This document shows, in pieces, positions 5,057 through 36,428 of a stretch of 37,931 nt of DNA; positions within the stretch are counted from its first letter, which is position 1; each line of letters starts with the position of its first letter. The notes beneath the pieces were generated by a model. It saw only the letters and a list, made by a program, of their open reading frames with translations. It had not been told where the DNA came from and did not search any database. Made by a program: the position numbers and the translations under genes. The stretch comes from a virus. Location: the IMG/VR virus record IMGVR_UViG_3300031784_002381, positions 1 to 37,931 of that record; one strand, written 5' to 3'.

Positions 5057-5057
5057 A

Positions 5058-5858: not shown

Positions 5859-6637
5859 TCAACAACCGGTACAGTCATTAGATGATCATATTTTTTACCG
5901 TATGTGAAAAAATCCTTTAGGGTAAAATCATCTCTATTGTTTTTCCACCAATTATAATAAAGATCTCTACAAATGAAATGATGTTTCTTTGGAATCTCAT
6001 CTAGATTTGGGTTTTGTGTAATCAAAGGAATCTGATATGTCTTACCAACAAATCCAAAAAACTGATCTAATCCTAGACATCTATAAAAATATTCTGGACC
6101 ATAGTTATGGATAAAGGAATATTTTCCCTTGATCGTGTGGATATCGATTAACTTTTGTGCAAAGTGTCGATTTATTAATACTGGTCCATAAAAACTATGG
6201 CTTGTTTTTGGGTGCAGAAAGAATGAAATATAATTATGAGATTCAAATCCCAATTGAATACAGTCCCAATCATATGGAAGATGAGTCATTAGATATTTCC
6301 AATCAAAATGCCAGTATTCTATTAGGTTCAGATCATAATCATCTTCAAACAAAATAAGATATTTTTCATTCGTATTCTCTAACCAATGTCTAACCATTTC
6401 CAATGTGGAAAGATTTATACAAACCTTTAAGTAGTCTTGTTCTTTGTATATTTCACTTTTATAAACAAGACTTTCCCACTCTTTAAAATTCTCCGGATAA
6501 AAAATACCTTCAGAAAATCTAGTTACATTTGAAATTTCCCATTTATCGAATTGGGATTCCATGTATTCTTTTCTTTCTGTTTTACTATCAACATTTAGAT
6601 AGTATATGGTAGGAAGTCCTTTAAGTTTTTCAGACAT
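5855..6637 (-). CDS. GT25-like glycosyltransferase, third copy
   Basis: The 260-residue paralogue has YYLNVDSKTERK (12-23), EDD at 98-100 (ILFEDDYDL) and the central W-D-C-I-Q-L-G-F block also found in the 283-aa copy, to which it is clearly closest. Its start overlaps the stop of the double-oxygenase gene by 8 bases. Role inferred: glycosylation of host LPS or a phage component. Confidence 0.86.
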   Translation of the reverse strand: MSEKLKGLPTIYYLNVDSKTERKEYMESQFDKWEISNVTRFSEGIFYPENFKEWESLVYKSEIYKEQDYLKVCINLSTLEMVRHWLENTNEKYLILFEDDYDLNLIEYWHFDWKYLMTHLPYDWDCIQLGFESHNYISFFLHPKTSHSFYGPVLINRHFAQKLIDIHTIKGKYSFIHNYGPEYFYRCLGLDQFFGFVGKTYQIPLITQNPNLDEIPKKHHFICRDLYYNWWKNNRDDFTLKDFFTYGKKYDHLMTVPVVE

Positions 6638-13717: not shown

Positions 13718-14755
13718 TTAAGTATTTGGATTAAGTATTCTTGGTTTGATTAGACCTTGATTCTTTAACTGATTATAATTTCTAACCCACTTATTAACAT
13801 TAACATCAATAGTACAATGACAATATTTTTTATTACAAATGACAGGCATAGTCGGCCATTTTATTTGTTCAAACTCATCTATATTTCCAATGGGTCCACC
13901 AATACCACAATTAGCTAGATATATCTGTCCAGATGAATTTACAAATAAACTTTTCAATCCAACTTCACAAACATATCCTTCAAAATTAGTCATACCACAA
14001 TTAATAAATTCTATTGAATTTATATTGTTATTTGGGTCATCTAACAAAATAGATCCATCTTCAAATTGAAAATCGGATGTTATTTTTAGAATTTCCTGTT
14101 TTCCCAAATGTTTTAGTATCTTTTGGTGGGGTTTTGCAGCTTCATCAGTATGAAACCAATCTAATTGATCTTTTGTGTAGATATGAGTTTCTTTATGTTT
14201 ACTACCCCAATCCATAATTCTAACTGGTTCCAAAAAGCAAGTATCAATATCTTTTAATGAATTGAAAACTTCTATACAATGATCCCACTTAGAAGGAAGC
14301 ATCATTAGTCGCACAGTTACGAATGTGTTTAAACTTGCAGCAATTACTTTTTCTTTAAAATCTTTAACAGGAAATTCTGGGTGGTATGAAAAACAAACAT
14401 ACTTTAAATACTTTGAAATATCTTCCCAATATTCTATTGGTTTAAATGCATTACTAGTTGTACCTATAGTATGACCATTAGAATTAAAAAACTTTACCAA
14501 CTCAGGAAAAAAGTGACTAATACTTGGCTCACCACCAGTAACTGAACAATGAATTTTTGGATACTTTTCGAATAATAATTCTAAGAATTTTTTTGCATTC
14601 TCCCATTTATAATGATGACCTTTACCTGAGTTTAATTCTGGTAAACAATATGTGCATTTATTATTGCATATATTATTAATCATCCATGTCAAATGCATCA
14701 AAGATGAATCTTTTTGAATTACTCGAATAATTTTTTTATCCTTTAATTCAATCAT
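13718..14755 (-). CDS. Radical SAM enzyme with SPASM-like C terminus
   Basis: The 345-residue protein has the 4Fe-4S motif CNNKCTYC (Cys30, 34, 37) and GGEPS (74-78) for SAM binding. The C-terminal part carries Cys253, 263, 283, 307, 312 and 314, as expected for auxiliary clusters of SPASM/twitch proteins, which modify peptides or sugars. It overlaps the upstream 64-aa gene by 8 bases. Substrate unknown; a sugar or peptide tailoring step in the surrounding cassette is possible. Full-length and apparently intact. Confidence 0.88.
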   Translation of the reverse strand: MIELKDKKIIRVIQKDSSLMHLTWMINNICNNKCTYCLPELNSGKGHHYKWENAKKFLELLFEKYPKIHCSVTGGEPSISHFFPELVKFFNSNGHTIGTTSNAFKPIEYWEDISKYLKYVCFSYHPEFPVKDFKEKVIAASLNTFVTVRLMMLPSKWDHCIEVFNSLKDIDTCFLEPVRIMDWGSKHKETHIYTKDQLDWFHTDEAAKPHQKILKHLGKQEILKITSDFQFEDGSILLDDPNNNINSIEFINCGMTNFEGYVCEVGLKSLFVNSSGQIYLANCGIGGPIGNIDEFEQIKWPTMPVICNKKYCHCTIDVNVNKWVRNYNQLKNQGLIKPRILNPNT

Positions 14756-17321: not shown

Positions 17322-18056
17322 ATGAAATTATTTGCAGGTCCTTGTGCTCTAGAATCCGGAGAGGTTTGTTTTGAAGTTGCAAAAACAATTTCAAAATACA
17401 TCCCAAAACACGTAGACTTTTACTTCAAAACTTCTTTCGAGAAAGCAAACAGATCAAGTCATAATAGTTTTACTGGAAAAGGTTATGGATACGCAATGGA
17501 CGTATTCTCAGAACTCAGAACGTCTGGGTATAAAATTATCACTGACATACACTTACCAAATCAAGTAGATTTATTTCATGATTATGTAGATGCATTCCAA
17601 GTTCCAGCATTTTTGTGTAGACAGTCGGAACTATTAGAAGCTGTTGCAAAAAGTGGAAAACTAGTAAATGTAAAAAAAGGACAATTTATTTCTCCTAGAA
17701 ATGCAATTCTTCTTGGAGAAAAGATGGAATCGTATGGTTGTGAAGATTTTTATATTTGCGAAAGAGGAAGTTGTTTTGGATATGACAACTTAGTAGTAGA
17801 CTTTAGAACAATTGATATTCTTAAGAATGCAGGATTCAAAGTATGTTTTGATGCAACACACTCTACTCAGGAAGGAGGAGACTCTGTTACAAGTGGAAAC
17901 TGGAAGTATGCAGAAAAATTGTCCAAGAGTGCTCTCGTTTGGGGAACTGATGCACTGTTTGTAGAAGTGCATCCTAAGCCCTCTGAGGCACTCTCAGACA
18001 AGGATTGTCAGATTCCTTTATCAGAGTTTCCGAACTATCTCTCTAGCGTCTTCTAA
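17322..18056 (+). CDS. kdsA: KDO-8-phosphate synthase
   Basis: The 244-residue enzyme condenses phosphoenolpyruvate and arabinose-5-phosphate into Kdo-8-phosphate. Hallmarks are AGPCALES (5-12), KTSFEKANRSS (36-46) and the later D-A-T-H-S-T-Q. It is slightly shorter than bacterial KdsA (about 280). It is one of only two plus-strand genes here and converges on kdsB, overlapping its 3' end by 36 bases. Together they would supply CMP-Kdo for lipopolysaccharide or another surface glycan. Confidence 0.95.
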   Translation: MKLFAGPCALESGEVCFEVAKTISKYIPKHVDFYFKTSFEKANRSSHNSFTGKGYGYAMDVFSELRTSGYKIITDIHLPNQVDLFHDYVDAFQVPAFLCRQSELLEAVAKSGKLVNVKKGQFISPRNAILLGEKMESYGCEDFYICERGSCFGYDNLVVDFRTIDILKNAGFKVCFDATHSTQEGGDSVTSGNWKYAEKLSKSALVWGTDALFVEVHPKPSEALSDKDCQIPLSEFPNYLSSVF

Positions 18057-18722
18057 GTCTTCTGGGGTGTCTACAGAAAACACATCATGTTCTGTTTCAT
18101 AAGAAAAAACAGAAACATCATTATCAAGAAACCGTAGTTGTTCCAACCTCTCAGTCTCTTCCAACTGGGAGGTTTTTAATTGACTAAAATTCTCTAAAAA
18201 ATTTCTAGTGTATCCATATATTCCCATATGAATTTTTAGTTGATCAGTTCCAATAGGATGTCTACTAAAATATAGAACTTTTCCAGATTGACTAGTAACT
18301 AATTTTGGTTTATCTTGAGACTTTCCGTACTTACTATTTTTATCATATAGTTTATACGGAGTAACAACATCATAATTTTCTTTAAGGAGATGCTCATTCA
18401 TTTCCAAAATAGCTTCTGGTGAAATGAATGGTTGATCACCTTGAACATTAATAATTTTTTCTCCAGGAATAGATGTCATCACATTAGAAATGCGTTCTGT
18501 TCCACTAGAGGCTTCGGCTTGTTGTAAGACTACTTTCACTTTAGTGTCTCTAACAGACTCATAAACTTCAAAACTATCTGTGATTACATAAGTTTCCAGA
18601 CCAGTAATCATACACTGGTTTACCACTCTCTGAATTAAGGTTTTACCTCCAATATCAGATAAAACTTTCTTCGGTAAACGAGAACTTTCAATTCTTGCAG
18701 GAATAACAATAGTAGCGTTCAT
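18021..18722 (-). CDS. kdsB: CMP-KDO synthetase
   Basis: In the 233-residue nucleotidyltransferase, P-A-R-I-E-S-S-R-L-P-K-K (8-19) binds CTP, SSGTER is at 72-77 and NVQGDQPFI (92-100) carries the metal-binding Asp. It activates Kdo as CMP-Kdo. The 3' end overlaps kdsA tail to tail, and the start overlaps the upstream 56-aa ORF stop by 4 bases. The kdsC phosphatase and a Kdo transferase are not in the window and would come from the host or another part of the genome. Confidence 0.94.
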   Translation of the reverse strand: MNATIVIPARIESSRLPKKVLSDIGGKTLIQRVVNQCMITGLETYVITDSFEVYESVRDTKVKVVLQQAEASSGTERISNVMTSIPGEKIINVQGDQPFISPEAILEMNEHLLKENYDVVTPYKLYDKNSKYGKSQDKPKLVTSQSGKVLYFSRHPIGTDQLKIHMGIYGYTRNFLENFSQLKTSQLEETERLEQLRFLDNDVSVFSYETEHDVFSVDTPEDLEDAREIVRKL

Positions 18723-22726: not shown

Positions 22727-23809
22727 TCAACCAATCGCAGGTGCGGTGAGAGCAACAGGAGTGTTCTCAGCAGCAGCAAGATCGAGAGGGAAGTTGTGAG
22801 CGTTACGCTCGTGCATCACTTCCATGCCCAGACCAGCACGATTGAGCACATCTGCCCAAGTGTTGATCACTTTACCTTGACCATCAACGATGGACTGGTT
22901 GAAGTTGAAACCGTTGAGGTTGAACGCCATCGTAGATACGCCCAGGGCAGTAAACCAGATACCGACAACAGGCCAAGCAGCAAGGAAGAAGTGTAGCGAA
23001 CGAGAGTTATTGAAGGAAGCATATTGGAAGATCAGTCGTCCGAAGTATCCGTGAGCGGCAACGATGTTGTAGGTCTCTTCTTCTTGTCCGAACTTGTAAC
23101 CATAGTTCTGAGACTCTTGCTCTGTCGTCTCGCGGACAAGGGAAGACGTAACCAGACTTCCGTGCATAGCACTAAACAGAGAGCCACCAAATACCCCAGC
23201 AACCCCAAGCATGTGGAACGGATGCATAAGGATATTGTGTTCTGCTTGGAAGACGAGCATGTAGTTAAACGTACCCGAGATTCCAAGAGGCATTGCGTCA
23301 GAGAAGGAACCTTGACCGAAAGGATAAACAAGGAACACCGCAGAAGCAGCAGCAACAGGAGCAGAGTAAGCAACGCAAATCCAGGGACGCATACCAAGAC
23401 GGTAAGAAAGTTCCCATTCACGACCCATGTAAGCATAGATACCAATCAGAAAGTGGAAGACGACCAGTTGGAATGGTCCACCGTTGTAAAGCCACTCATC
23501 TAGGGAAGCAGCTTCCCAGATGGGATAAAAGTGCAGTCCAATAGCATTGGACGAAGGAATTACAGCACCAGAGATGATGTTGTTTCCGTACATGAGTGAA
23601 CCAGCAACGGGTTCACGGATACCATCAATGTCCACTGGGGGAGCACCGATGAATGCGATGATGAAACAAGTTGTAGCAGCAAGTAGGCAAGGAATCATGA
23701 GGACTCCAAACCAACCGACATAAAGACGGTTATCGGTTGATGTAACCCAATTGCAAAACTGTTCCCAAATATTCGATTGTGATTGTTGACGTGAAAGTGT
23801 AGCAGTCAT
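22727..23809 (-). CDS. psbA: Photosystem II reaction centre protein D1
   Basis: In the 360-residue D1, visible marks are the helix set, [18 protein letters not shown] with Tyr161 and Asp170 equivalents, and [11 protein letters not shown]. The C terminus L-D-L-A is followed by a 15-residue extension ([15 protein letters not shown]) for processing. Residue 131 is Glu (GREWELS), equal to position 130 of host D1, the state linked with high-light D1. No intron or homing endonuclease interrupts it. The ATG at 23809 is chosen over a frame extended 9 codons upstream. Phage D1 replaces the rapidly damaged host protein during infection. Confidence 0.99.
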
Positions 23810-23823
23810 TGTTTTTTTTAAAA

Positions 23824-23965
23824 ATAGTAGGACCATCAGGGAAATGGTGGTGATACTATGTTCCCGCCACCCTCAGGCAGGATATGAGAGACGTTTTTAT
23901 ACTCCCCATAGGTCTCGGTTAGTGGGAGTTCGACAATGTTACGAGAACTTTTGGTTTCGTAACAT
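23824..23965 (-). promoter_or_regulatory. Structured psbA leader with four hairpins
   Basis: Between the likely promoter and psbA lie four nested or consecutive inverted repeats: 9 bp at 23936-23944/23957-23965, 6 bp at 23901-23906/23924-23929, 6 bp with one G-U at 23863-23868/23876-23881, and 6 bp at 23824-23829/23854-23859 enclosing a 5-bp stem at 23832-23836/23844-23848. The 9-bp stem would lie at the extreme 5' end of a transcript from the GATAAATA motif, where it could protect the mRNA. No clear ribosome-binding site precedes the psbA ATG. Confidence 0.5.
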
Positions 23966-23969
23966 TTGT

Positions 23970-24788
23970 TTACCTATTTATCATACTACGGGTTCCCATG
24001 GGTGTCAAGGGCCTTGGGCCCCAATCAACGTTGTCATCCATTACATACTCAACATTGTCCAAAACCAACCTATCCAAAAGATTTTGATAGTCACTAAAAG
24101 TCAAACACTTTGTAGTCATTATAACAGGATACATTCTTTTCCAAAGATCAAAATCATTTTCCCTTAAAGTCAAAAAAACTCCTGGTTCTGGTTTATCTTT
24201 TAACTCTAGTTTCTTATATTCTTCATAGGCTATTTCAATGCCAATAATTCTCTGAATATCTTTCCTATAAAAATCTAAAAACAAAGTAGAATTACTCAGA
24301 TCAATATCTTTCCAACTATCATTATTGACGATATCACTAACCAAATCCGAAAGATTATGGTTCGATTCTGGGTCATCTTTAGTTCTATTAAAAATTACAT
24401 CAACTTTTTTGTCTGGGAAGTAATTAGAAATTATTAAAACTCTACCTGCACCAGAACATATATGAGTTAAATTTACGTCGGAAACAATAGGAAATCTAAA
24501 AGATTGTTCCGTTAAAAGGGCTTTATATAGATGAGGCAACTTTGTAAAATTACTTATCTTACAATGTTTGCAGGATTCCTCAAAAGTTTTATAAGGTCCA
24601 TACTTTATTTTTAAGACTAATTTTATAAAATCACACAGATAATCCTCAGTAAAAATCTGAGGAACGTTTATAGATTTTTTGTAGACATAAGAAATCTGGA
24701 TATCTTTTGGATCTATTTCTCGATACTTAGAAATAGCCCAATAACTAGGATCACAATATTTCTCGTAACATAAAATATTTTTTATCAT
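23970..24788 (-). CDS. Paralogous family protein, ParB/Srx-like box (most diverged)
   Basis: The 272-residue protein of unknown function belongs to the five-member local family. It shares F-T-K-L-x-x-L-Y-K near 81-89, R-F-P-I-V at 98-102, the box G-A-G-R at 113-116 followed by N-Y-F-P, then W-K-D-I-D-L-S near 160. It lacks the MYDIKYF start and the KKLYTWK end of other members. Several extra cysteines sit at 7, 12, 52, 73 and 76. It overlaps the next family gene by 4 bases and its 3' end contains the psbA late-like promoter. Confidence 0.85.
   Translation of the reverse strand: MIKNILCYEKYCDPSYWAISKYREIDPKDIQISYVYKKSINVPQIFTEDYLCDFIKLVLKIKYGPYKTFEESCKHCKISNFTKLPHLYKALLTEQSFRFPIVSDVNLTHICSGAGRVLIISNYFPDKKVDVIFNRTKDDPESNHNLSDLVSDIVNNDSWKDIDLSNSTLFLDFYRKDIQRIIGIEIAYEEYKKLELKDKPEPGVFLTLRENDFDLWKRMYPVIMTTKCLTFSDYQNLLDRLVLDNVEYVMDDNVDWGPRPLTPMGTRSMINR
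23975..23982 (-). promoter_or_regulatory. Late promoter-like motif upstream of psbA
   Basis: The minus strand reads GATAAATA, one base off the T4 late consensus, identical to the motif in the psbD promoter. It would start transcription about 4 bases before the 9-bp leader hairpin. Confidence 0.45.
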
Positions 24789-25654
24789 ATTAAAACTTCA
24801 GTCTCCGAAATTATATTATCTAATAATTTTAGATAATCTTTTTCTTCATTAAGATTAGAATTAATTATTAATTCATAAATTGTTTTCCAGACAATATCCT
24901 TAGATAAAATCTTATCATAAAAATTTTTGTTATTTTTATTAAATTCTATACCTTCAATGTAGTAAATATCTTTCATCTTACCAAACATTTTGGCATGGCC
25001 ACGTTGAAGTTCTTTTCCTATAATTATATCTACATAATCAAATTCAATATTTGATTTCAGTTGAATGTGATTACAGAGATCTTCAATTGTGTTAAAACAA
25101 ATATCTCCTCTTGATTTCCCGTTAACTTTATCACTTATGGCATAGTCTACTCTAATATCTGGAAAATATAAATGACCCAATAATGCCCTAGAAACTCCAG
25201 TTATTTGATATAGTTTTATATTATCATTTAAATCATAAACAGATGTCATTAAAAAAGGCATCATAAATTTACCAAAATTTTTAAGATCTCGATAAAGATA
25301 TGGTAATGTCATCAAAAAAGATCTCATAAAACCCGTCTTATCGGTGATACAAGTTTCATGAGGAAATCTAGTAGGCACAATATAATTGGAACCCATAGAA
25401 TACTGCATAGTTTGTTCGAAGTATTCAGATATTCCATATTTTTCTGAATTACTTTTCACATCATTTATATCGGTAACAAAAGTATTCCACGATCTATTAA
25501 AAACTATTGGAGAAATCTTAACGTTTTCTATGTAGTTTACTCGGATTTCTCTATTTGATATCTCTTCAAGATGTTCTTCTATGTCAGGATCAATATCATC
25601 AAATATTTTGTTCTTAGAGCTATCATTAAATTGATAATAATAATTGATATTCAT
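24785..25654 (-). CDS. Paralogous family protein, degenerate box
   Basis: The 289-residue family member has the hydrophobic segment and M-M-P-F-L at 131-135, but the box reads G-V-S-R at 153-156 (others have G-x-G-R). L-Y-F-P follows at 162-165. The loop after it is expanded with many charged residues. The C-terminal YTWK motif is absent. This may be an inactive or specialised copy. It overlaps both neighbours by 4 bases, so all four minus-strand copies are translated as one unit. Confidence 0.85.
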   Translation of the reverse strand: MNINYYYQFNDSSKNKIFDDIDPDIEEHLEEISNREIRVNYIENVKISPIVFNRSWNTFVTDINDVKSNSEKYGISEYFEQTMQYSMGSNYIVPTRFPHETCITDKTGFMRSFLMTLPYLYRDLKNFGKFMMPFLMTSVYDLNDNIKLYQITGVSRALLGHLYFPDIRVDYAISDKVNGKSRGDICFNTIEDLCNHIQLKSNIEFDYVDIIIGKELQRGHAKMFGKMKDIYYIEGIEFNKNNKNFYDKILSKDIVWKTIYELIINSNLNEEKDYLKLLDNIISETEVLI

Positions 25655-26460
25655 TTAAATTTCCAAGTATATAATTTTTTAGTTAGAGAAAGATTATCAA
25701 AAATTATTTGATCCAATAAAACTACAAGATCATTGTAGTTATTGACATCAAAATTGATAATGGATTCTTTAATACTATTCCAAAGTTCTATGTTTGCACT
25801 TTTTTCAATAAAAGATTCGGGTATTCTAGCTTTATAATTATTGAAATAATCTTCGTCAGTAATGTCTATTGATTTAATATAATACAAATCCTGAAAATTT
25901 TCAATAGTCATAATAATAACTTTGTTGGATAAATCAAAATCTTTCCAATATCGATTTTCTAAAACTGAATCTATAAACCTATGACAAATTTCTTCAGACC
26001 CTACCCCGTAATCTGAAGAATGAACTGAGATATCAAATTCAAATTCTGGAAAATATCTATATGCAATAAGTGCTCTACCATGTCCACCAGCTTGTAATTG
26101 ATTCTTAGATCTCAAAGTATGTGGAGTGTAGATGAATGGGTACATGTAAGACTTATGTTCGATCAAATCCAAGTAAAGGTATCCCAACTTTGTGAATATA
26201 TCAAAATATATTGGCTCAAAAATTCCAGGGGGACCACCATATGGAACTCCATTTACATATTCTTTTTCATAAGAAGAATCAACATATGTCTTTTTCACAT
26301 CCAAAACATCACTCATAAAGACTTTGAGAGATTCATTAAACCTGTCCTCAACAATCTTTTGGTTTCTACGATATTCAAAATTCATTACCTTTAATGGATT
26401 TGTTTTAGAAAAAAACAATCTCTCACCGGTAACGTCATCAAAATATTTTATATCATACAT
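25651..26460 (-). CDS. Paralogous family protein, ParB/Srx-like box
   Basis: The 269-residue canonical family member starts MYDIKYFDDVTGERL and has K-L-G-Y-L-Y-L-D (91-98), MYPFI (106-110), the box GGHGRALIAYRYFP (125-138), then D-Y-G-V-G-S-E-E, Y-W-K-D-F-D-L-S and the C-terminal KKLYTWK. The pattern of a Y-P-[IF]-[IV] strand, a polar loop, G-H-G-R and a helix resembles box II of ParB/sulfiredoxin-fold domains. This is a proposal from pattern only; catalytic residues are unproven. Confidence 0.87.
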   Translation of the reverse strand: MYDIKYFDDVTGERLFFSKTNPLKVMNFEYRRNQKIVEDRFNESLKVFMSDVLDVKKTYVDSSYEKEYVNGVPYGGPPGIFEPIYFDIFTKLGYLYLDLIEHKSYMYPFIYTPHTLRSKNQLQAGGHGRALIAYRYFPEFEFDISVHSSDYGVGSEEICHRFIDSVLENRYWKDFDLSNKVIIMTIENFQDLYYIKSIDITDEDYFNNYKARIPESFIEKSANIELWNSIKESIINFDVNNYNDLVVLLDQIIFDNLSLTKKLYTWKFK

Positions 26461-26463
26461 AAC

Positions 26464-27258
26464 TCATTTCCATGTATAAAGTTTTTTAGCAAGAGGTAGA
26501 GTATCAAATATTACGTGGTCAAGTATTTCAAAAAATCCATCAATATTATTTTGAAGTTTATAATTAATGATCACATCTTTCATGCGGTGCCATATTTCTA
26601 TCTTACAAGAGTTTTCCAGAAAATAATCTGGTCTAATATTCTGAAACGTTTGATAGTAATTATCGTCTACGAATTCTATAGACTTAATAAAAAATAAATC
26701 TCTATCATTCAATTTATAGTCTTCAACATTTTCAATATTGAGAATTATTGTTTTATCCGAAATATCAATATTTTTCCAATATGTTCCGTTCTTAACTTTG
26801 TCCACAAAATCTTGCATTAATTCTTCCGACCCTATCCCAAAACTGGTTGAGTTAACAACGAAATCAAAAGTTTTCTCTGGAAAATATCTCCAGGCCAATA
26901 ATGATCTACCATGACCAGATTTAATAACATCATCGTTTAGAACGATAGGATACATAAAACTCTTCTCAAGAAGAAGATCCAGATACAAATAAACTAATTT
27001 AGTAAATCTATCAAAGTAAACTTTATTTTGTCGTTGACCTTCTAATCTTTCGATATATGAAATCTCACTACAAAATGGTCCATCCATATCCCTACACTCT
27101 AAGACATCCTCCATAAAAACTCTGAGGCCATCTTTATACATTTCCTTTGTTATTTTTTCACTTTCTCTATATTCAAATCCCATTATTTGTAAAGGATTTT
27201 CTTCCGTAAATATTAATTCCTCTCCCGACTGATCATGAAAATATTTTATATCATACAT
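26464..27258 (-). CDS. Paralogous family protein, ParB/Srx-like box
   Basis: The 264-residue canonical member starts MYDIKYFHDQSGEEL and has TKLVYLYLD (86-94), MYPIV (102-106), SGHGRSLLAWRYFP (114-127), F-G-I-G-S-E-E-L and KKLYTWK at the end. It is closest to the copy at 25651. The ATG at 27258 is chosen; a longer in-frame extension would run into the glycosyltransferase gene. It overlaps the GT8-like gene stop by 8 bases, tying the family to that enzyme. Confidence 0.87.
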   Translation of the reverse strand: MYDIKYFHDQSGEELIFTEENPLQIMGFEYRESEKITKEMYKDGLRVFMEDVLECRDMDGPFCSEISYIERLEGQRQNKVYFDRFTKLVYLYLDLLLEKSFMYPIVLNDDVIKSGHGRSLLAWRYFPEKTFDFVVNSTSFGIGSEELMQDFVDKVKNGTYWKNIDISDKTIILNIENVEDYKLNDRDLFFIKSIEFVDDNYYQTFQNIRPDYFLENSCKIEIWHRMKDVIINYKLQNNIDGFFEILDHVIFDTLPLAKKLYTWK

Positions 27259-27916
27259 TTGACATCTCTCCAAAATATTTTTTCCAAATTTCAGAATACT
27301 CACAATCTCTATAATTTTCAAACCAAGGACCACCCTCAGTATAATGTAATGCTTTTGGATTACCCTCCTTATACCAACCAACTAACCAATTCCATTCCAA
27401 AGGCAACTCCCCAATCTCATCATCTTTTAGCCAAGTAAATCTATGCAGTTCTTGAGGAGATAACTTATTAACGGTTTCTACATTTAGATTTTTATTGGAT
27501 GGATGATTACAGTTCCACAAAATAAGAGAACTCCAGTTCTTTCTGGGATAATTCACTTGCAATTGTCCATCCATTTTAATTTTATTTATTGGGTTGTATT
27601 CGTGTTTGACAACTAAAACTGCATACTTATCGTCTCTGAATTTAAACAGTTCTTCTATATCAGATAGCCATAAAAAATCACAATCACAAAAAACAGACCA
27701 ACCAGAATAATTAGATAAGTGTGGAGTTAAAAATCTTGTATATGAAAATTCAGTTGAGGATGGCTCATCAAAAGGTCTATAATAACAACCAGATGATCTT
27801 AAATCCGATTGTATTAAAGGTATAACTTCTACCTTAGATTGATGTTTTATAAGACTATATTTACAAACCTGATATGCAACATCTTCTCTAGAATCATATC
27901 CAATAAAAACTTTCAT
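27251..27916 (-). CDS. GT8-like glycosyltransferase
   Basis: The 221-residue protein begins MKVFIGYDSRED (Rossmann-like start) and has the DxD motif DCD at 78-80 (VFCDCDFLWLSD) and HYTEGGPW at 191-198, as in family 8 and related retaining transferases. It would use a nucleotide sugar with a divalent metal. It is the first gene of the operon holding four family proteins and is divergent from the fifth, so its role may be linked to theirs. The ATG at 27916 replaces an upstream TTG. Confidence 0.85.
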   Translation of the reverse strand: MKVFIGYDSREDVAYQVCKYSLIKHQSKVEVIPLIQSDLRSSGCYYRPFDEPSSTEFSYTRFLTPHLSNYSGWSVFCDCDFLWLSDIEELFKFRDDKYAVLVVKHEYNPINKIKMDGQLQVNYPRKNWSSLILWNCNHPSNKNLNVETVNKLSPQELHRFTWLKDDEIGELPLEWNWLVGWYKEGNPKALHYTEGGPWFENYRDCEYSEIWKKYFGEMSNV

Positions 27917-27933
27917 TACCAATAATCAATCTA

Positions 27934-27939
27934 TATAAT
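27934..27939 (+). promoter_or_regulatory. -10 element for plus-strand family gene
   Basis: TATAAT on the plus strand ends 22 bases before the ATG at 27961, the same spacing as the kdsA promoter. The -35 is not recognisable. Confidence 0.45.
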
Positions 27940-27960
27940 TTAATTATTCTATTATTTAAC

Positions 27961-28764
27961 ATGTATGATATAAGGTATTTTGATGATGATAGAGGAAATG
28001 AAATAGAATTGCCGTCAAAGATAATGAGATTTAAAACTGAATCTCAAAGAGTATTGCCAAGTAATATTTTAATAGACTCCTATAAATCCTTCAAAGATAA
28101 TATGCAACAAGCGATAGAAGATTATGAGACATTCTTTAATACCGATGAGTATGAAGATAGAACAAATGAAAAGTTTTCTATAAAAATACAAAAATTTACA
28201 AAATTAGTTTACTTGTACTTGGACTATTGTGAAGATGATTGTTTTATGTATCCTTTTATTCTTGTGAAAGATCCTACAACCACAAATGAAGACAAATGGA
28301 TTTCAATGGCAGGTCAAGGTCGAATACTAATTAAATGGAAATATTTCCCAAAATCTTTTAGTGATGTATCATATCATTCTATTGATTATGGAATAGGATC
28401 AGATGATGTAATAAAAGAATATATTGATTATGTTAAAAACACAAAATTTTGGAAAGACAAAGATATCTCAGATAAAACTATAAGGATAACATTTGAAAAA
28501 TTTAATGCAAGAGAAAAAATTTATAATATAAAACATTTAGAATTTGCACCTAAAGAATACTACAATAACTATAGAATGCAAAGACCAGATTATTTTTTAG
28601 AGAATGTTTGTGATTTGGAAATATCAAAAAACATAAAAAATCTTTTCTTAAATTCTGGGATACAAAAAGATTCTCCAGCTTCAGATTATATACAACTACT
28701 AGATGACTTTATTAAAACAAGCACGAATATTGCTAAAAGAAAATATACCTGGAAAATGACATAA
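27961..28764 (+). CDS. Paralogous family protein on opposite strand
   Basis: The 267-residue family member, divergent from the GT8-like gene, has MYDIRYFDDDRGNEI, TKLVYLYLD (80-88), MYPFI (96-100), AGQGRILIKWKYFP (117-130), D-Y-G-I-G-S-D-D, F-W-K-D-K-D-I-S and the tail K-Y-T-W-K. The N-terminal extension differs from the minus-strand copies. It has its own promoter and ends at a palindromic terminator, so it may be regulated separately. Function unknown. Confidence 0.87.
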   Translation: MYDIRYFDDDRGNEIELPSKIMRFKTESQRVLPSNILIDSYKSFKDNMQQAIEDYETFFNTDEYEDRTNEKFSIKIQKFTKLVYLYLDYCEDDCFMYPFILVKDPTTTNEDKWISMAGQGRILIKWKYFPKSFSDVSYHSIDYGIGSDDVIKEYIDYVKNTKFWKDKDISDKTIRITFEKFNAREKIYNIKHLEFAPKEYYNNYRMQRPDYFLENVCDLEISKNIKNLFLNSGIQKDSPASDYIQLLDDFIKTSTNIAKRKYTWKMT

Positions 28765-28790
28765 AAAAAGAGAGGAGAATTCTCCTCTCT
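28763..28790 (-). terminator. Palindromic terminator between two convergent genes
   Basis: A perfect 22-bp palindrome (28769-28790, centre GAATTC) with seven T on the minus strand ends the peroxiredoxin operon. It may also slow plus-strand transcription, but the plus side lacks a T-run. Confidence 0.82.
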
Positions 28791-28796
28791 AAAATA

Positions 28797-29330
28797 TCAG
28801 ACTACTACAGGAGTCTTTGATTTTACATATGAAAGAACTTTGTCTGGAGTAGAATATTCATATGGATCGGTATCCGCATTATCTCGTTTACCATCTTCCA
28901 TAAACAACTGTTCAATTACTCCGTCATTAATGACAGCAGCGTATCTCCAAGAACGTAGGGCAAATCCCAAATTACGTTTTTGAACTAACATGTCCATGCC
29001 TTGAGTGAATTCACCATTACCATCTGGAATCAGTTTAACTTTCTCGATTCCTTGATCTTTGGCCCATGCATTCATTACAAATGCATCATTAACGGAAAGA
29101 CAATACACTTCGTCAATACCAGCTTCAATAAATTCAGAGTAGTTTTCCTCAAATCCAGGAAGTTGATATGCACTGCATGTAGGAGTAAATGCACCAGGAA
29201 GTGCGAACAACACTACTTTTTTTCCACCGAAGAGTTCTTCAGTAGATCGAGTTACAAATTCACCATTTTCGCGGAACATGAAGTTCACAGATGGAATATT
29301 TACGATTTCTTCAGGAATTAGTTGGGGCAT
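28797..29330 (-). CDS. Peroxiredoxin (Prx5/type II-like)
   Basis: The 177-residue protein has the peroxidatic motif PGAFTPTCS (45-53, Cys52), with R-S-W-R-Y-A downstream as the conserved arginine region. It would reduce hydrogen peroxide or alkyl peroxides using glutaredoxin or thioredoxin; the glutaredoxin at the start of the window is a possible donor. Last gene of the hli-ferredoxin operon. The ATG at 29330 gives the family's usual start ([10 protein letters not shown]); it overlaps the previous gene by 20 bases. Confidence 0.92.
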   Translation of the reverse strand: MPQLIPEEIVNIPSVNFMFRENGEFVTRSTEELFGGKKVVLFALPGAFTPTCSAYQLPGFEENYSEFIEAGIDEVYCLSVNDAFVMNAWAKDQGIEKVKLIPDGNGEFTQGMDMLVQKRNLGFALRSWRYAAVINDGVIEQLFMEDGKRDNADTDPYEYSTPDKVLSYVKSKTPVVV

Positions 29331-29595
29331 GATTATAAGGGTGTTTTTGTTTAAGTTCAGGATTTGGTTGTGAAGGAACAACTGGGTTCCTTGATTTGTT
29401 TTTAATTACAATAAATGCATCATTTTGATAGGATACAGTTCCAAAGGGTTTTGCCCATTTTGGATTTGCATCTGGGTGAGTAGCAGTTCCTGTGACTGCA
29501 ACTCCGCCAATCTCTACAGAGATTTCATCATCAGCAGTCCATTCTAATTTTTGAAGAGCAATGGAGAGTTGCCCCAACCAGTCAGCACTTCTCAC
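29311..29595 (-). CDS. Hypothetical protein, 94 aa, GTG start
   Basis: Starts at GTG overlapping the ferredoxin stop by 4 bases (GTGA), after AGGAAGAG. Residues 20-60 suggest a small beta domain ([13 protein letters not shown]), and the C terminus is proline/asparagine-rich. It lies between ferredoxin and peroxiredoxin, hinting at a redox role. Family not recognised. Confidence 0.7.
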
Positions 29596-30636: not shown

Positions 30637-32106
30637 TCAGAACTTAAAAGTAGTCTGAATCACACCACCCCAGTTAGAGGAGTTGTCGGCAAGACGTTGG
30701 TTATCACTTCCGTAGATGATTGCAGGAGTGACACTGATGTTATCCGAGACTTGATACTTGTAGAAGATTTCAAGCATCGTTGATTTCTCAAGGTTCTCAC
30801 CAGTAGGTGCCTGACCGATAGCAACACCAGCGGAATTACCACCAACAAACACATCTTCCCACTGAAGACCAGCAAACCAAGACTGGCTATCAGTAGCATC
30901 GCTAGGAGTACCACTTACAGTATTCCATCCATAACCAGCGGAAATAGAAGGAACAATACCCGATTTCTGAGGTTGCCAGTAAGCGTTCAGAGCATAACCA
31001 TTAGAGGTTTGACCAGGAACCAGAGTACCAGAAGCACCATTCAGACCGTTATAGGTGCGAACACGAGTTCCTTCAGTACCATAACGGTAACCAAATGCAG
31101 CACCCCAGTTAGTACCACGATAACCAATTTGTGCAAGAGTATTCAGAGCACCAGTCTCATCAAATACTCCAGTCTCACTATCGTTACCACTTTGAGCAAC
31201 GTAGTTTACACCAGCAATAAGACCTTTCTTACCATACTGAGCACCGAAACCAGCACCAGTTGCTTTGTTATAAACACCAGGAGTACCAGCAACAGCAAAG
31301 AAGTCAAGAATACCAGACTTATAAGCAGAAGGCATCCAAGCAATCTCAGTGTTACGAACTGCGGCACCTGCAGTCAGAGTTGCTTTGTTATTAAAAGCAG
31401 GGAATGAATAATACAGACGATCGATAACTACATTGTTACCAACTTCACTGGTAGTGTTGTCTGCTTTATCCAGTTTGAACAGAGAAGAACTAGAACCGAA
31501 AGGATCGCCACTGAAGTTGGATGAGCGCAGACGGGTACGGAGCAGATCCTTACCAGTAAATGAAGTATCCAGATTCAGGCGAAGATCGTAGTTGAATGCG
31601 GTGCGGGTTGTATCACCACCTTTGGTACGATAGTCATCAACACCACCAAGAACAAAGTTTGCTTCACCACGAAGTTTAGTAGTAGTAGAGAATTGAGTTG
31701 CCCCAAGAGAACCAACCACTCGTTCTAGTCCATCTACACGACCTTGAAGAACGGTCAGTTCATCACGGAACTCATTAGCAAGACGCTTGAGTTCATCAGT
31801 TTGTTCAGTTACACGGTCAAGACAGGCATTCAGAAGTGCGGCTGCTTCATAACGAGTCATTGCACGGCCACCACCAAAGGTTCCGTTTGCATAACCAGCA
31901 ACACAACCATAACGTTCTACAAGGTTGCTGAGTGCTTGATATGCCCAATCAGTGGGTTGCACGTCAGAGAGTTGTTTGATGCTTGAGACTTGTTCCGAGG
32001 AAGTATACTGGTTGACTGCTGCCATATTGAGGTCTGCGGCATTCGCAGCAACAGGAGCAACCATACCCAGAGCAACGGGTGCAAGCATCAGTTGTTTGAG
32101 TTTCAT
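30637..32106 (-). CDS. Cyanobacterial SLH-domain porin
   Basis: The 489-residue outer membrane protein has a signal peptide (1-24, ending VAANA before ADL) and an SLH domain at about 42-105 (L-S-D-V-Q-P-T-D-W-A-Y-Q-A-L then G-Y-A-N-G-T-F-G-G-G-R-A-M-T-R-Y-E-A). A short coiled coil follows (100-135), then an OprB-like beta barrel ending in T-T-F-K-F with the terminal Phe signal. Family members in cyanobacteria take up iron or small solutes and bind the cell wall by the SLH part. Higher GC than its neighbours suggests recent acquisition from a host. It could change nutrient uptake or the phage-receptor profile. Confidence 0.94.
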   Translation of the reverse strand: MKLKQLMLAPVALGMVAPVAANAADLNMAAVNQYTSSEQVSSIKQLSDVQPTDWAYQALSNLVERYGCVAGYANGTFGGGRAMTRYEAAALLNACLDRVTEQTDELKRLANEFRDELTVLQGRVDGLERVVGSLGATQFSTTTKLRGEANFVLGGVDDYRTKGGDTTRTAFNYDLRLNLDTSFTGKDLLRTRLRSSNFSGDPFGSSSSLFKLDKADNTTSEVGNNVVIDRLYYSFPAFNNKATLTAGAAVRNTEIAWMPSAYKSGILDFFAVAGTPGVYNKATGAGFGAQYGKKGLIAGVNYVAQSGNDSETGVFDETGALNTLAQIGYRGTNWGAAFGYRYGTEGTRVRTYNGLNGASGTLVPGQTSNGYALNAYWQPQKSGIVPSISAGYGWNTVSGTPSDATDSQSWFAGLQWEDVFVGGNSAGVAIGQAPTGENLEKSTMLEIFYKYQVSDNISVTPAIIYGSDNQRLADNSSNWGGVIQTTFKF

Positions 32107-33012: not shown

Positions 33013-33867
33013 TCACATTACAATCCAGTTTTCAGGATAAAGATCTTTAGTATCTTTATCGGAATATGCAGGTCCAAACCAATTCTTGGGAGCAACTACT
33101 TTACCGGACCCGTTTTGCAACCAAGCGCCCCACCAAGACAGTGTTGAGTTAGCGGTGATTCCACCCTTACAGTTAGCCATAATACAAAGGTCAACATAAG
33201 GAGTATAGGATCCATCTGGATATTTTTCTTCAGGAGTAGAAACATAGAATCTATCTGGTTTAAAGAGTTCTTGTTCCATAACCCACTCCGGAGAATCCGA
33301 GACAACAACAACTTCTTGATCATCTGGGAAAAGTTTTAGAGCTTCTTCATAATATTCCAGAGTTTGTGGAGGATGCATAGAAGAACATTCGGTATAAGCC
33401 CACTTAAATCCTCTAGCATCAACCAAATTAGGATCACCACGACGAACGTGTAGGAAAATAGGATCTTTAAGTTCTGAAAGAAATCCCGTAACTGGTTCTA
33501 AAAGATCATCATGGAACGTAAAGTCTTTACGAATATCTTGTTCAATGTGTTTGAAATACTTTTCAGACTGAAAGAATCCATGAATAGAGACATCATTTGG
33601 ACAAAGTTGTAGAAGTTCTTCATCAAAATGGAAATGTTTTTCCATGACGATAGGAGCGAATCCACGATCCAAAATATAAAGGTTTGTGGATTTCACACTA
33701 TCAAGAGTAAAACAATTAGCTAAACTATAATTATCAACCCTTGGTACTTTATATGGAGGAATACACCAATCATATCCTTTATTAGCAGCTATACCACGAA
33801 GAGCTGCATATTGAAACATTTGGTTCCCTAGACGACCAATGTTACCCAATTCATTAAACGCTAACAT
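33013..33867 (-). CDS. GT11 fucosyltransferase-like protein
   Basis: In the 284-residue protein GRLGNQMFQYA (11-21) and HVRRGD (140-145) are the GDP-fucose binding marks of alpha-1,2-fucosyltransferases, and N-S-T-L-S-W-W-G-A-W-L lies near 235. Complete and canonical. Its start overlaps the GT2/GT7-like gene by 14 bases. It probably adds fucose or a similar deoxyhexose to a surface glycan. Confidence 0.92.
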   Translation of the reverse strand: MLAFNELGNIGRLGNQMFQYAALRGIAANKGYDWCIPPYKVPRVDNYSLANCFTLDSVKSTNLYILDRGFAPIVMEKHFHFDEELLQLCPNDVSIHGFFQSEKYFKHIEQDIRKDFTFHDDLLEPVTGFLSELKDPIFLHVRRGDPNLVDARGFKWAYTECSSMHPPQTLEYYEEALKLFPDDQEVVVVSDSPEWVMEQELFKPDRFYVSTPEEKYPDGSYTPYVDLCIMANCKGGITANSTLSWWGAWLQNGSGKVVAPKNWFGPAYSDKDTKDLYPENWIVM

Positions 33868-34675
33868 CTAATTGTTTCCTCCTTTCTGCGATATAAGATT
33901 GTTGTTGATAATAAGAGAATAGTTTTTGAGAATCCCAAGTTCTAATGTTTTGCCAAAGATTATGATTATCCATAAATTTGGGATTGTGATAATGTGAATT
34001 AAAAGTTCTACCATGTTCAAAGTGGTAGACATCTCTATTTACTCTGCCAACTTTTCGACCAAATGCATTTAGTCTATAGTAAAATTCACAATCTTCTGCA
34101 CCCCAAGAAATAAAATTTTCATTCCAGAATCCAATTTCAATCTCAGTTTGTCGTTTAATCATTTGACCCCAACCAATGGAAGAAGCAACTCTAAATTTAG
34201 ATTCTTCCAAAACACTAAAATCAAAATTAGAATCTAAAAATTGATTGAAAGTATTTTCAGAATAGTTTACAGCCCACTGATAAACACCACACCCAAATGG
34301 ATATACTGCATCTGCAGTTCCATCTTTGATGTATGCATATGCAATTTCGTAACTAGATTTTGGTAATACAATATCTACATCATGATTATAAACGATCTCA
34401 GTCTCAGAAGCAACTAAAAGATCGTTGAGAATTCTAGTTTTATGGAAAAACTTATCATCATTCTCTTCAAAGATATGTGTTAAATTATCAACTGCAACAT
34501 ACTTTTTAATTACAGGTAGAGCCCTGAACTTAAAATGAGAATGTGTATCGACTTCTTTTATAATTACTTTGGACTCTGGGAAATTTTTTAAGAGATAAGT
34601 AACGGAAGTAATTACATTTTTTAGTCTATCTTCAGACTCAATTCTACATGGTAGAAGAAATGTTAAATCTTTCAT
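33854..34675 (-). CDS. GT2/GT7-like glycosyltransferase
   Basis: The 273-residue protein has the DxD motif DVD at 99-101 (YNHDVDIVLP) and W-G-A-E-D-C-E-F-Y-Y-R-L (191-202), the acceptor-side motif of beta-1,4-galactosyltransferase and chondroitin synthase-type enzymes. It is likely an inverting transferase using UDP-Gal or UDP-GalNAc. Overlaps its neighbours by 4 and 14 bases in the fucosyltransferase operon. Confidence 0.9.
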   Translation of the reverse strand: MKDLTFLLPCRIESEDRLKNVITSVTYLLKNFPESKVIIKEVDTHSHFKFRALPVIKKYVAVDNLTHIFEENDDKFFHKTRILNDLLVASETEIVYNHDVDIVLPKSSYEIAYAYIKDGTADAVYPFGCGVYQWAVNYSENTFNQFLDSNFDFSVLEESKFRVASSIGWGQMIKRQTEIEIGFWNENFISWGAEDCEFYYRLNAFGRKVGRVNRDVYHFEHGRTFNSHYHNPKFMDNHNLWQNIRTWDSQKLFSYYQQQSYIAERRKQLDVSV

Positions 34676-35568
34676 GATTCAGCGGGTATTGGAGATGGAT
34701 CGTTGTGAATTTTGATCCACCTTTCAGGGATCATGTCTTTCATATTGTAATGAGCGTAAGCAGGCCCAAACCAAGGATCTGGAGCAACGACTTTACCAGA
34801 ATCTCCTTGTAACCAAGCTCCCCACCAACTCAGAGAAGAATTAGCAATAATTGCACCTCCACATAGACTCATGAGGCAGAGATCGATGTAGGGGACGGCC
34901 GCACCATCTCCGAAGGTTTCATAGGAAGAGTCGGAGAAGTGGAACCTATCTCCCTGCAACCAAGATTGACGTTTACACCAATCAATAAGATCTGAAACAA
35001 CAATCACATTCTTGTCTTCTGGAAACTCTTTTAAGGCTTGAATATAATAATCTTCTTTACAGAGTGGGTGATATTCCTGCACCATTTGATAAGACCACTT
35101 CTCACCTCTCCTACCAGTGAGATTGGGAGAACCACGGCGAACATGAAGAAAAATACAGTTATCTCTTCCACCAAGGCTGTCAACAAATTCTTGACAAGGT
35201 TCTAAGTAGTCTTTTTTGAAAACAAAATCTTCACGAATAGATGAAGCAATTGACTCAAAGTATTTTTCTGTTTGAAAATTACCAGAAAAATTTGTATTAT
35301 CTTCACAATTATTGAAGATCTCTTCATTGAAGTGCATGTCCCTATACTCTACAGTTCTGTAGAAGGGTTCTCCAGTATTCTTACTTAGATCACAATTAGT
35401 AAGTTCAAAGGCATCAAACAACCCATAATTGTCTAAACGATCTGCGTCTGGAGGTGGAATAATCCAATCAAATCCACGATTGGAAGCAAGTCCACGAATA
35501 AATGCGTATTGAAACATTTGATTTCCGAGGCGCCCCTCATTACCAAGTCCTTTAAATGATACAGCCAT
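34672..35568 (-). CDS. GT11-like protein with altered HxRRxD motif
   Basis: The 298-residue paralogue has GRLGNQMFQYA (12-22), but the second motif is HVRRGS (142-147): the Asp of HxRRxD is replaced by Ser. N-S-S-L-S-W-W-G-A-W-L near 245 is intact. The enzyme may have changed donor use or lost activity. It has a longer Gly/Arg loop after the motif than its neighbours. Its start shares one base with the next GT11 gene's stop. Confidence 0.88.
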   Translation of the reverse strand: MAVSFKGLGNEGRLGNQMFQYAFIRGLASNRGFDWIIPPPDADRLDNYGLFDAFELTNCDLSKNTGEPFYRTVEYRDMHFNEEIFNNCEDNTNFSGNFQTEKYFESIASSIREDFVFKKDYLEPCQEFVDSLGGRDNCIFLHVRRGSPNLTGRRGEKWSYQMVQEYHPLCKEDYYIQALKEFPEDKNVIVVSDLIDWCKRQSWLQGDRFHFSDSSYETFGDGAAVPYIDLCLMSLCGGAIIANSSLSWWGAWLQGDSGKVVAPDPWFGPAYAHYNMKDMIPERWIKIHNDPSPIPAES

Positions 35569-36428
35569 TACTTACTCCACTCTTGAATAATCCAACGATC
35601 AGGAACAATGTCCGAAGTATCTAGGTGAGTCATTGCAGTACCAAACCATTTCTTAGGATCTGGAGCAATTACTTTACCTCGATCATTTTGCAACCATGCT
35701 CCCCACCAGGAGAACGATGAGTTTGCAATGATAGCACCAGAACAAAGACTCATCAGACACAGATCAACCTGCGGTAGAAGAGTGTTTTGCATTTTTCCAG
35801 TACCATCAATAGTACGATATGTATATCTACCATTACTATCATTAAACAAGAAACGATCTTGTTTAAAAAATTCTTGAGACTTACACCACTCCATATCGTC
35901 AGTAAAAACGAAACAAGGAGTGTCCTCAGGAAATTCTTTCAACGCATCTTCAAAAAATTGTATCGGGAGGATGGGATGATACTGTTCTCTTCCGATATTA
36001 TCACTCTGGCGAATATGAAGGAAAATAGGGCTAGAAGGTAAACTATCAATATACTCCTGGCAAGGAGTGAGATAGTCTTCTCTAAATGTGAAATCTTCAC
36101 GGATTTCTTTTGCGATGTGACTGAAATATTTTTCAGTTTGGAAATATCCATCAAGACTCACATTGTCTGGACATTCTTCAAAAAACTCTGGAATAAAACA
36201 GTGATCATTCTCTTGTATGTATTCACCATTAACAAATCCAATGTTGGATTCATTAACATTTGTCAATTTAAATGTTTCAAAGAGACCATAATTATCTTTA
36301 TGATCATAAGTATCTGGAGGAATAACCCAGTCGTATCCTCGTTTTGCAGCAATACCTCTGAGTGCTGCATATTGGAACATCTGATTTCCTAGACGCCCGT
36401 TACTTCCTAGCCTATTATATCCAATCAT
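35568..36428 (-). CDS. GT11 fucosyltransferase-like protein, third copy
   Basis: The 286-residue paralogue has GRLGNQMFQYA (11-21) and HIRQSD (138-143), which keeps the His, first Arg and Asp of HxRRxD but not the second Arg. N-S-S-F-S-W-W-G-A-W-L is near 250. It shows a long insert with acidic residues after the first motif. It overlaps the dehydrogenase stop by 4 bases (ATGA). Confidence 0.9.
   Translation of the reverse strand: MIGYNRLGSNGRLGNQMFQYAALRGIAAKRGYDWVIPPDTYDHKDNYGLFETFKLTNVNESNIGFVNGEYIQENDHCFIPEFFEECPDNVSLDGYFQTEKYFSHIAKEIREDFTFREDYLTPCQEYIDSLPSSPIFLHIRQSDNIGREQYHPILPIQFFEDALKEFPEDTPCFVFTDDMEWCKSQEFFKQDRFLFNDSNGRYTYRTIDGTGKMQNTLLPQVDLCLMSLCSGAIIANSSFSWWGAWLQNDRGKVIAPDPKKWFGTAMTHLDTSDIVPDRWIIQEWSK

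Follow-up and report, generated by a model that had tools for sequence, protein, structure and literature searches.

In sulfiredoxin (Srx) the catalytic cysteine occupies the second place of a G-C-H-R box, and the box Cys of Srx and the box Glu of ParB are catalytic in those proteins. Recent work has established the ParB-CTPase fold as a versatile nucleoside triphosphate (NTP)-binding module, with Box I formed by a helix and a loop and Box II by a GxxR motif, and it names SbnI as a serine-kinase homolog (PMC12704722). The kinase SerK is described as converting free serine and ADP to O-phosphoserine (PMC5120207). Here we describe five proteins encoded between positions 23970 and 28764 of a 37,931-base virus record (IMG/VR record IMGVR_UViG_3300031784_002381; the whole stretch is referred to as the window, and open reading frames (ORFs) are named by their window positions), which are grouped around a gene for a GT8-like glycosyltransferase. 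Our modelling suggests that these five genes may represent a new ParB/Srx-fold branch that binds nucleotide or phosphate and acts in glycan assembly with the GT8-like enzyme, perhaps as phosphotransferases, a reading to which we give a probability of roughly 40%. The fold is known; as far as we found the family is new and the glycan setting is new for the fold.

Compared with the ParB-CTPase proteins (PF02195), the family has the same predicted succession of helix, loop, strand, strand, G-x-x-R, helix and strand and an invariant G and R in the P motif, but it has no PF02195 match, its box reads G-x-[GSC]-R rather than GERR, no helix-turn-helix (HTH) or dimerisation domain was found, and it carries an extra N-terminal helix, a C-terminal hairpin with helices and tandem arrays in glycan regions. 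The free serine kinases SerK (TK0378) and SbnI resemble it in fold (entries 5x0b, Z 3.0, and 6nr6, Z 2.5, with the model of 24785), in chain length (241 and 254 amino acids (aa) in those entries) and in having no HTH (for the kinases, PMC12704722), and one operon of the family contains a HisC/CobD-type pyridoxal phosphate (PLP) enzyme; no sequence similarity to these kinases was detected however, the family is set among glycan genes, and the likeness observed is at the level of the fold. Sulfiredoxin is the best structural match of the 24785 model and a peroxiredoxin gene lies nearby, but the family is about twice as long, occurs in many copies and has no catalytic Cys in any of 26 sequences. 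The partner gene is a clear member of the phrog_28018 phage glycosyltransferases, other members of which the family rarely accompanies. The family appears to be a branch beyond the reach of the PF02195 model and of surveys that start from PF02195.

A paralogous family around a GT8-like gene

All five ORFs of the original prediction are present. The GT8-like gene (27251..27922, minus strand; listed with a TTG start, the ATG at 27916 being an alternative) is followed on the same strand by 26464 (26464..27258, 264 aa), whose most likely start is the ATG at 27258 (MYDIKYF) rather than the upstream TTG at 27381 of the mechanical ORF list and whose box GHGR is formed by residues 115-118 (window 26905-26916). 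Behind it lie 25651 (25651..26460, 269 aa, box GHGR), 24785 (24785..25654, 289 aa, box GVSR) and 23970 (23970..24788, 272 aa, box GAGR). The GT8-like gene and 26464 overlap by 8 nucleotides (nt), 26464 and 25651 are separated by 3 nt and the following two junctions overlap by 4 nt each, coordinates that agree with the proposed co-translation of the four genes with the glycosyltransferase. The fifth member, 27961 (27961..28764, plus strand, 267 aa, box GQGR), is divergent from the GT8-like gene across a 38-nt gap. A separate promoter had been proposed for it; the region 23600-29500 contained 37 sigma-70-like sites against 35.7 in shuffles, which is no excess and does not bear the proposal out, T4-type promoters not having been searched.

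Sequence comparison identifies the five as true paralogs. Within the window, BLASTP (dbsize 1e6) linked 26464 to 25651 (E 6e-75), 27961 (E 7e-47) and 23970 (E 9e-16), and 24785 to 25651 (E 2e-11). A profile built from 16 relatives outside the window recovered all five window proteins with E values from 1e-62 to 4e-24 (Z=40000), whereas 1000 shuffled window proteins gave nothing better than E 0.31. The proposed five-member family is thereby borne out from three sides, and a chance motif is ruled out, the homology spanning most of the length. Identity to 26464 is 46% for 25651, 36% for 27961, 28% for 23970 and 22% for 24785, giving a close trio (26464, 25651 and 27961) and two more divergent proteins. 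The suggestion that divergence rises with distance from the GT8-like gene holds only roughly, since 23970 lies farther away yet is less diverged than 24785, the most divergent copy.

Profile collections gave no significant match for the five window proteins (Pfam, PHROGs, NCBIfam and PADLOC) or for five relatives in Synechococcus phage S-SCSM2R (Pfam and PHROGs); PHROGs returned scattered single-member matches only (best E 0.02), and a PDB sequence search with a ten-row family alignment returned one chance match and no SerK or SbnI chain. With tblastn (E<=1) each of six queries against 50,697 phage records matched only S-SCSM2R, one query being its own protein. This phage has five copies, SSCSM2R_40, 262, 263, 268 and 270, all annotated as hypothetical; the 241-kb cyanophage S-SRM01 was matched by no tblastn query. 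In IMG/VR, beyond the window record, members were found on six contigs: 3300031951_009861 with the same five copies (the 26464 protein 100% identical), 3300030099_004448 (238.9 kb) with six, 3300020439_001565 with seven, and the fragments 3300030433_002216, 3300010296_001488 and 3300017917_000541 with one each. A motif scan of all IMG/VR, with a pattern that recognises 15 of 27 known members per sequence, detected five of these six contigs and no others, and scans with subgroup alignments gave no additional virus. No credible member was seen in 386 cyanobacterial genomes; a weak C-terminal match in one of them (E 9e-4) was judged to be chance, its frame lying opposite a longer Gly/Asn-rich ORF. 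Genes near GT8 in phage Mosig (seven), CcrColossus (three) and a Manatee Spring phage (one) are not members (best E 0.081). On these searches the family has been seen so far only in cyanophage-like viruses, cyanobacteria being the cellular genomes covered. The literature searched, most of it outside subscription journals, gave no description of the family, of a ParB fold in a glycan setting or of S-SCSM2R.

A tree of 26 sequences, about 25 of them independent as SSCSM2R_40 and the copy of contig L093 are nearly identical, leaves eight inner branches open and contains three very long rows (SSCSM2R_268, 24785 and SSCSM2R_262). Several groups extend across viruses: 23970 with SSCSM2R_263 (100/99), SSCSM2R_270 with the last array genes of contigs L028 and L090 (96/94), and 27961 with the first array genes of the same two contigs (84/96, not starred). 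The pair 26464/25651 is found only in the window (97/96), 25651 being a duplicate of 26464. Part of the copy set seems to be older than the split of the viruses, with later duplications. For six ortholog pairs of L028 and L090 the ratio of nonsynonymous to synonymous substitution rates (dN/dS, own Nei-Gojobori count) was 0.097-0.293, and 0.118 for the adjacent GT8 gene; purifying selection acts on these orthologs, and all six shared copies, including one with a G-x-C-R box, look maintained in this one virus pair, the window copies having no close ortholog. The idea of a functional set agrees with these low ratios in one pair, with the copies common to several viruses and with the repeated overlap with GT8 described below.

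Predicted fold and conserved box

The AlphaFold2 model of 26464 (pLDDT 90.5, pTM 0.88) places a helix at 83-98, a strand at 105-108 (YPIV), a second strand at 111-114, the GHGR box at 115-118, a helix at 116-125 and a strand at 131-136; behind these come a beta-hairpin and a C-terminal part made of helices. The order of the helix, strands and box is that of Box I and Box II as given for the ParB-CTPase fold (PMC12704722), and the box sits at the start of its helix, the predicted place of the P motif. For this model Foldseek lists a ParB N-domain first (E 0.14). When the Foldseek match list was re-examined with VIA-align, rows 1-9 were ParB, Noc or human Srx (Z 4.0-2.6) and 10 of 18 rows were of ParB/Srx types, and a BFVD search gave several phage ParB/Srx proteins among its insignificant matches (E 0.07 and up). 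The model of the most divergent window copy, 24785, is weaker (pLDDT 72.8); of its 21 structure rows with Z>=2, 18 are by title Srx, ParB/Spo0J, KorB, PadC, Noc, SerK or SbnI, led by Srx 1xw3 (Z 3.8). Two of the remaining three (1vk1 and 4ovb) we take to be ParB/Srx-like, and the kind of the third, 2hwj, was not recognised. With hhalign against 25 ParB_N domains, YPIV...IKSGHGR was set on PIVV...IIAGERR in the right register; the score is weak, and column shuffles reached it in 9 of 300 cases for the core and in 14 of 300 for the full comparison.

A ParB/Srx core fold is in our view probable for the family, because this superfamily leads the matches of two divergent queries, about 22% identical, and the box is correctly positioned; the low Z values alone would not convince. 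For 26464 and 24785 the fold is predicted from models and for 25651, 27961 and 23970 by homology. The proposal of a ParB/Srx-like core stands in part: the top rows of both models and the position of G-x-x-R favour it, neither modelled protein was predicted to be free of such a core, and the low Z, the insignificant Foldseek values and the missing HMM (hidden Markov model) match detract from it.

Three positions are invariant in all 26 family sequences, P104 of the strand and G115 and R118 of the box, followed by Y92 (25 sequences), D132 and L88 (24 each), T86 (23) and K87 (21). The box proposed as G-x-G-R widens over these sequences to G-x-[GSC]-R, the third place being G in 22, S in two and C in two, and the second place is variable and never Cys or Glu. 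The proposed Y-P-[IF]-[IV] strand motif is found in 26464, 25651 and 27961, and differs in 23970 (F-P-I-V) and 24785 (M-P-F-L), and the Y-F-P motif noted earlier is present in all five window copies.

Glycan neighbourhood and possible roles

The GT8-like protein falls clearly in phrog_28018 (E 3e-55), and its DxD motif (D80-C-D82) has both D80 and D82 invariant in 17 sequences. Its match to Pfam Glyco_transf_8 (E 0.018) is under the cut-off and PDB matches are weak, WbbM (E 0.034) and GT8 (E 0.25) with a 17-sequence query and only a lysozyme (E 0.038) with a two-sequence query. A GT8 gene was searched for in eight records, the six member-bearing IMG/VR contigs, S-SCSM2R and S-SRM01, and was found in five (L089, which is the window virus, L090, L028, L094 and S-SCSM2R); it was not found in the fragments L092 and L093 or in S-SRM01. 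In each of the five GT8-bearing family viruses (the window, S-SCSM2R, L028, L090 and L094) a member overlaps the 3' end of GT8. Among 18 phage records with a phrog_28018 enzyme only S-SCSM2R has the family, and among 80 of at least 533 IMG/VR GT8 loci only L028 has a member. The gene after GT8 elsewhere, in seven that were scanned, was varied, in some cases of a glycan type: GT61 in two and a radical S-adenosylmethionine (SAM)/SPASM gene in one; in about 20 of the 80 loci, counted by eye, no next gene was found. In other phages a GT8-like gene followed by GT61 is seen at L020:4824-5852 and L024:5897-6934, and in Pelagibacter phage Mosig (L275:4004-6909) the genes behind GT8 encode a hypothetical protein of 276 aa and a product annotated as sulfotransferase.

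S-SCSM2R and the window have in common a neighbourhood of KdsA/KdsB, amidinotransferase, 2-oxoglutarate (2OG) oxygenase, psbA and psbD. The window KdsA (17322-18056, plus strand) is 70% identical to SSCSM2R_265, annotated KdsA, and the KdsB-like gene (18021-18722, minus strand) is named by sequence and by synteny with SSCSM2R_264, without alignment; both belong to the synthesis of CMP-Kdo (cytidine monophosphate-Kdo). Other glycan-type genes of the window include GT25-like, GT2-like and aminotransferase genes. In S-SCSM2R, 2OG oxygenase genes are interspersed with the copies 268 and 270. SSCSM2R_40 follows a radical SAM gene and is separated from GT8 by about 63 kb along the shorter arc of the circular genome (181 kb along the longer). 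This last copy belongs to a second conserved operon of a HisC/CobD-like PLP enzyme, a radical SAM/SPASM protein and a family member, present in S-SCSM2R (L006:7384-9789) and L092 (L092:5234-7642), with a 4-nt overlap of the radical SAM gene and the member in both; L093 (L093:1-1193) keeps the last two genes, its contig beginning there, and in S-SCSM2R and L093 fibre-like genes are near. The PLP enzyme of L092 matches hisC (E 3e-28) and CobD (E 2e-25), both under the cut-off, and in the phage collection its only close match is S-SCSM2R (98%), identity in 10 further records among the matches listed not exceeding 28%. HisC and CobD act on O-phosphorylated substrates.

The predicted core would bind an NTP, a nucleoside diphosphate or a sugar or amino-acid phosphate via its G-x-x-R P motif, and the C-terminal part and variable loops would choose the acceptor. 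Each copy may handle a different acceptor in glycan assembly alongside the GT8-like enzyme, the target being either a lipopolysaccharide-like host coat or the fibres of the phage itself; the enzyme and the members might act successively on one glycan or be kept together by coupled translation. Copies would have multiplied in tandem, as the region's other glycan genes seem to have done. The likeliest chemistry would be phosphoryl transfer, with a sugar or a small molecule as acceptor, comparable to the ParB-fold kinases SerK and SbnI, chiefly because a member pairs with the HisC/CobD-like PLP enzyme in the second operon, which is circumstantial. A more specific proposal is a set of five to seven ParB/Srx-fold phosphotransferases, each with its own sugar or amino-acid acceptor, that phosphorylate the glycan built by the adjacent GT8-like enzyme; we regard this as rather doubtful, and if true it would mean a new enzyme class for the fold and a combinatorial code for surface-glycan remodelling in infection. 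The broader reading bears on how large cyanophages alter host or virion surfaces and poses a testable question, whether NTP is bound via G-x-x-R and which substrate is modified, which the isolate S-SCSM2R, growing on Synechococcus WH7803, makes accessible to experiment.

A number of observations weigh against a nucleotide- or phosphate-binding ParB/Srx branch in glycan assembly. Both the Srx Cys and the ParB Glu are missing at box position 2, so that catalysis as in characterised members is not implied, box position 3 is mostly Gly where it is mostly Arg in the 25 compared ParB_N domains, and no Box III-like conserved motif was seen by eye in the 26-sequence alignment. All structural Z values, obtained on predicted models, are only 2-4 and below 5, and for 26464 the best is 4.0 with 8 of 18 VIA-align rows being unrelated proteins; Foldseek against the PDB gave no significant match (best E 0.14 for 26464 and 0.35 for 24785) and many of its rows are pyruvate kinases. 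The ParB_N (PF02195) HMM matched none of the five window proteins at E<=10, none of the five S-SCSM2R proteins at E<=1 and none of eight records, and our own ParB profile scores negative on the family. On the genomic side four of the seven scanned proteins after GT8 have no Pfam match, and the next gene in about 20 of the 80 GT8 loci (counted by eye) encodes a small product of some 90 aa. In the 6.6 kb of L094 a GT8 gene and one member stand together, and no other gene of glycan type was recognised there. Support for a glycan role from the surroundings of GT8 is thus partial. The structural points would fit an unrelated fold in which the ParB/Srx resemblance is a mere common alpha/beta arrangement. 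Set against this, ParB/Srx entries come top for two models about 22% identical, GxxR falls at the predicted P-motif place and hhalign gives the same register, and we consider an unrelated fold quite unlikely.

The overlap of a member with GT8 in five viruses, the several copies per single GT8 gene and the lack of conservation at the known catalytic box positions would also suit a non-catalytic role, in which each copy binds nucleotide or nucleotide-sugar and forms a complex with the GT8-like enzyme that sets its acceptor or donor specificity; three of the five S-SCSM2R copies (268, 270 and 40) lie away from GT8 however, and we hold this explanation to be unlikely. That the paralogs are acceptors glycosylated by GT8 and then delivered or built into the virion appears very unlikely: fibre-like ORFs do follow the L090 array (by eye), a gene annotated as long tail fibre is located a few genes beyond SSCSM2R_40 and the third gene after the L094 member matches a virion structural family (E 7e-12), but the compact alpha/beta structure, modelled with confidence, the invariant box of phosphate type and the absence of significant matches to structural-protein families speak against it. 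Proteins acting on DNA, in partition, anti-restriction or as nucleases, would share the fold class, and fusion to DNA methyltransferase-type domains is frequent among phage ParB-like proteins (PMC12704722). Pfam nevertheless found no HTH, dimerisation or nuclease domain in ten members, no ParA-like gene was noticed by eye beside the arrays, where no dedicated search was made, and the neighbours are mostly glycan genes; such a role is highly improbable, and a classical ParB segregation clamp was rejected, with no HTH or C-terminal dimer domain and no GERR box. We give least credence to sulfiredoxin-like repair of the neighbouring peroxiredoxin, which is disfavoured by a box without Cys in all 26 sequences, by the oddity of five to seven copies for such a role and by the ORF lists around the L094, L090 and L092 members, in which inspection by eye revealed no peroxiredoxin, even though a peroxiredoxin-like gene (28797-29381) adjoins 27961, an annotated peroxiredoxin lies three genes from the first S-SCSM2R copy and Srx tops the structural matches of 24785.

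Other features of the window and its relatives

The window virus is a T4-like cyanophage. In the region of its psbA and psbD genes the matches listed show 83-87% identity over 56-58% of a 4-kb query and are all Synechococcus phages, and the window also carries a PhotoRC-II RNA, a tRNA-Ala and many glycan genes. The PhotoRC-II RNA (23848-23941, 79.3 bits) lies upstream of psbA and inside an unlikely plus-strand ORF (23844-24167). A terminator-like hairpin of 9 pairs with a 4-nt loop and a T run on the minus strand is found at 28769..28790, between 27961 and the peroxiredoxin-like gene; the scan found four such hairpins against 2.0 expected.

Apparent tandem paralogs are seen at 4205-6637 and 33013-36428, comprising three GT25-like and three GT11-like genes with a GT2-like gene between; one of the GT25-like genes was tested (E 3e-4, under the cut-off) and two were named by eye, and the GT11-like genes were named by eye and by synteny with S-SCSM2R. 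The gene at 3622-4221 matches DegT/DnrJ/EryC1 aminotransferases with 199 aa against a 360-position profile and may be a shortened enzyme or a small phage form, SSCSM2R_305 being of similar size. In S-SCSM2R the 112-aa protein SSCSM2R_34 (L006:4927-5265), annotated as a ParB-like CTPase, has a G-V-H-R box and adjoins a 2OG oxygenase; it matches neither our own ParB profile nor the family. Another T4-like cyanophage, S-SCSM1, has many cell-wall and 2OG oxygenase genes, and ParB is not mentioned in the accessible text of its description (PMC9602691).

The window also encodes a radical SAM protein (13718-14755), for which NCBIfam gives prokaryotic viperin as the top match (E 8e-7), though well under the cut-off (28.5 of 180 bits). 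A SomB-type porin for iron uptake is encoded in full length at 30637-32106 (NCBIfam por_somb, E 3e-82); it has SLH and OprB domains and is 71.6% identical to the porin of the reservoir cyanophage S-SRM01. Six phage records match it, and it is covered only by the two that belong to S-SRM01.

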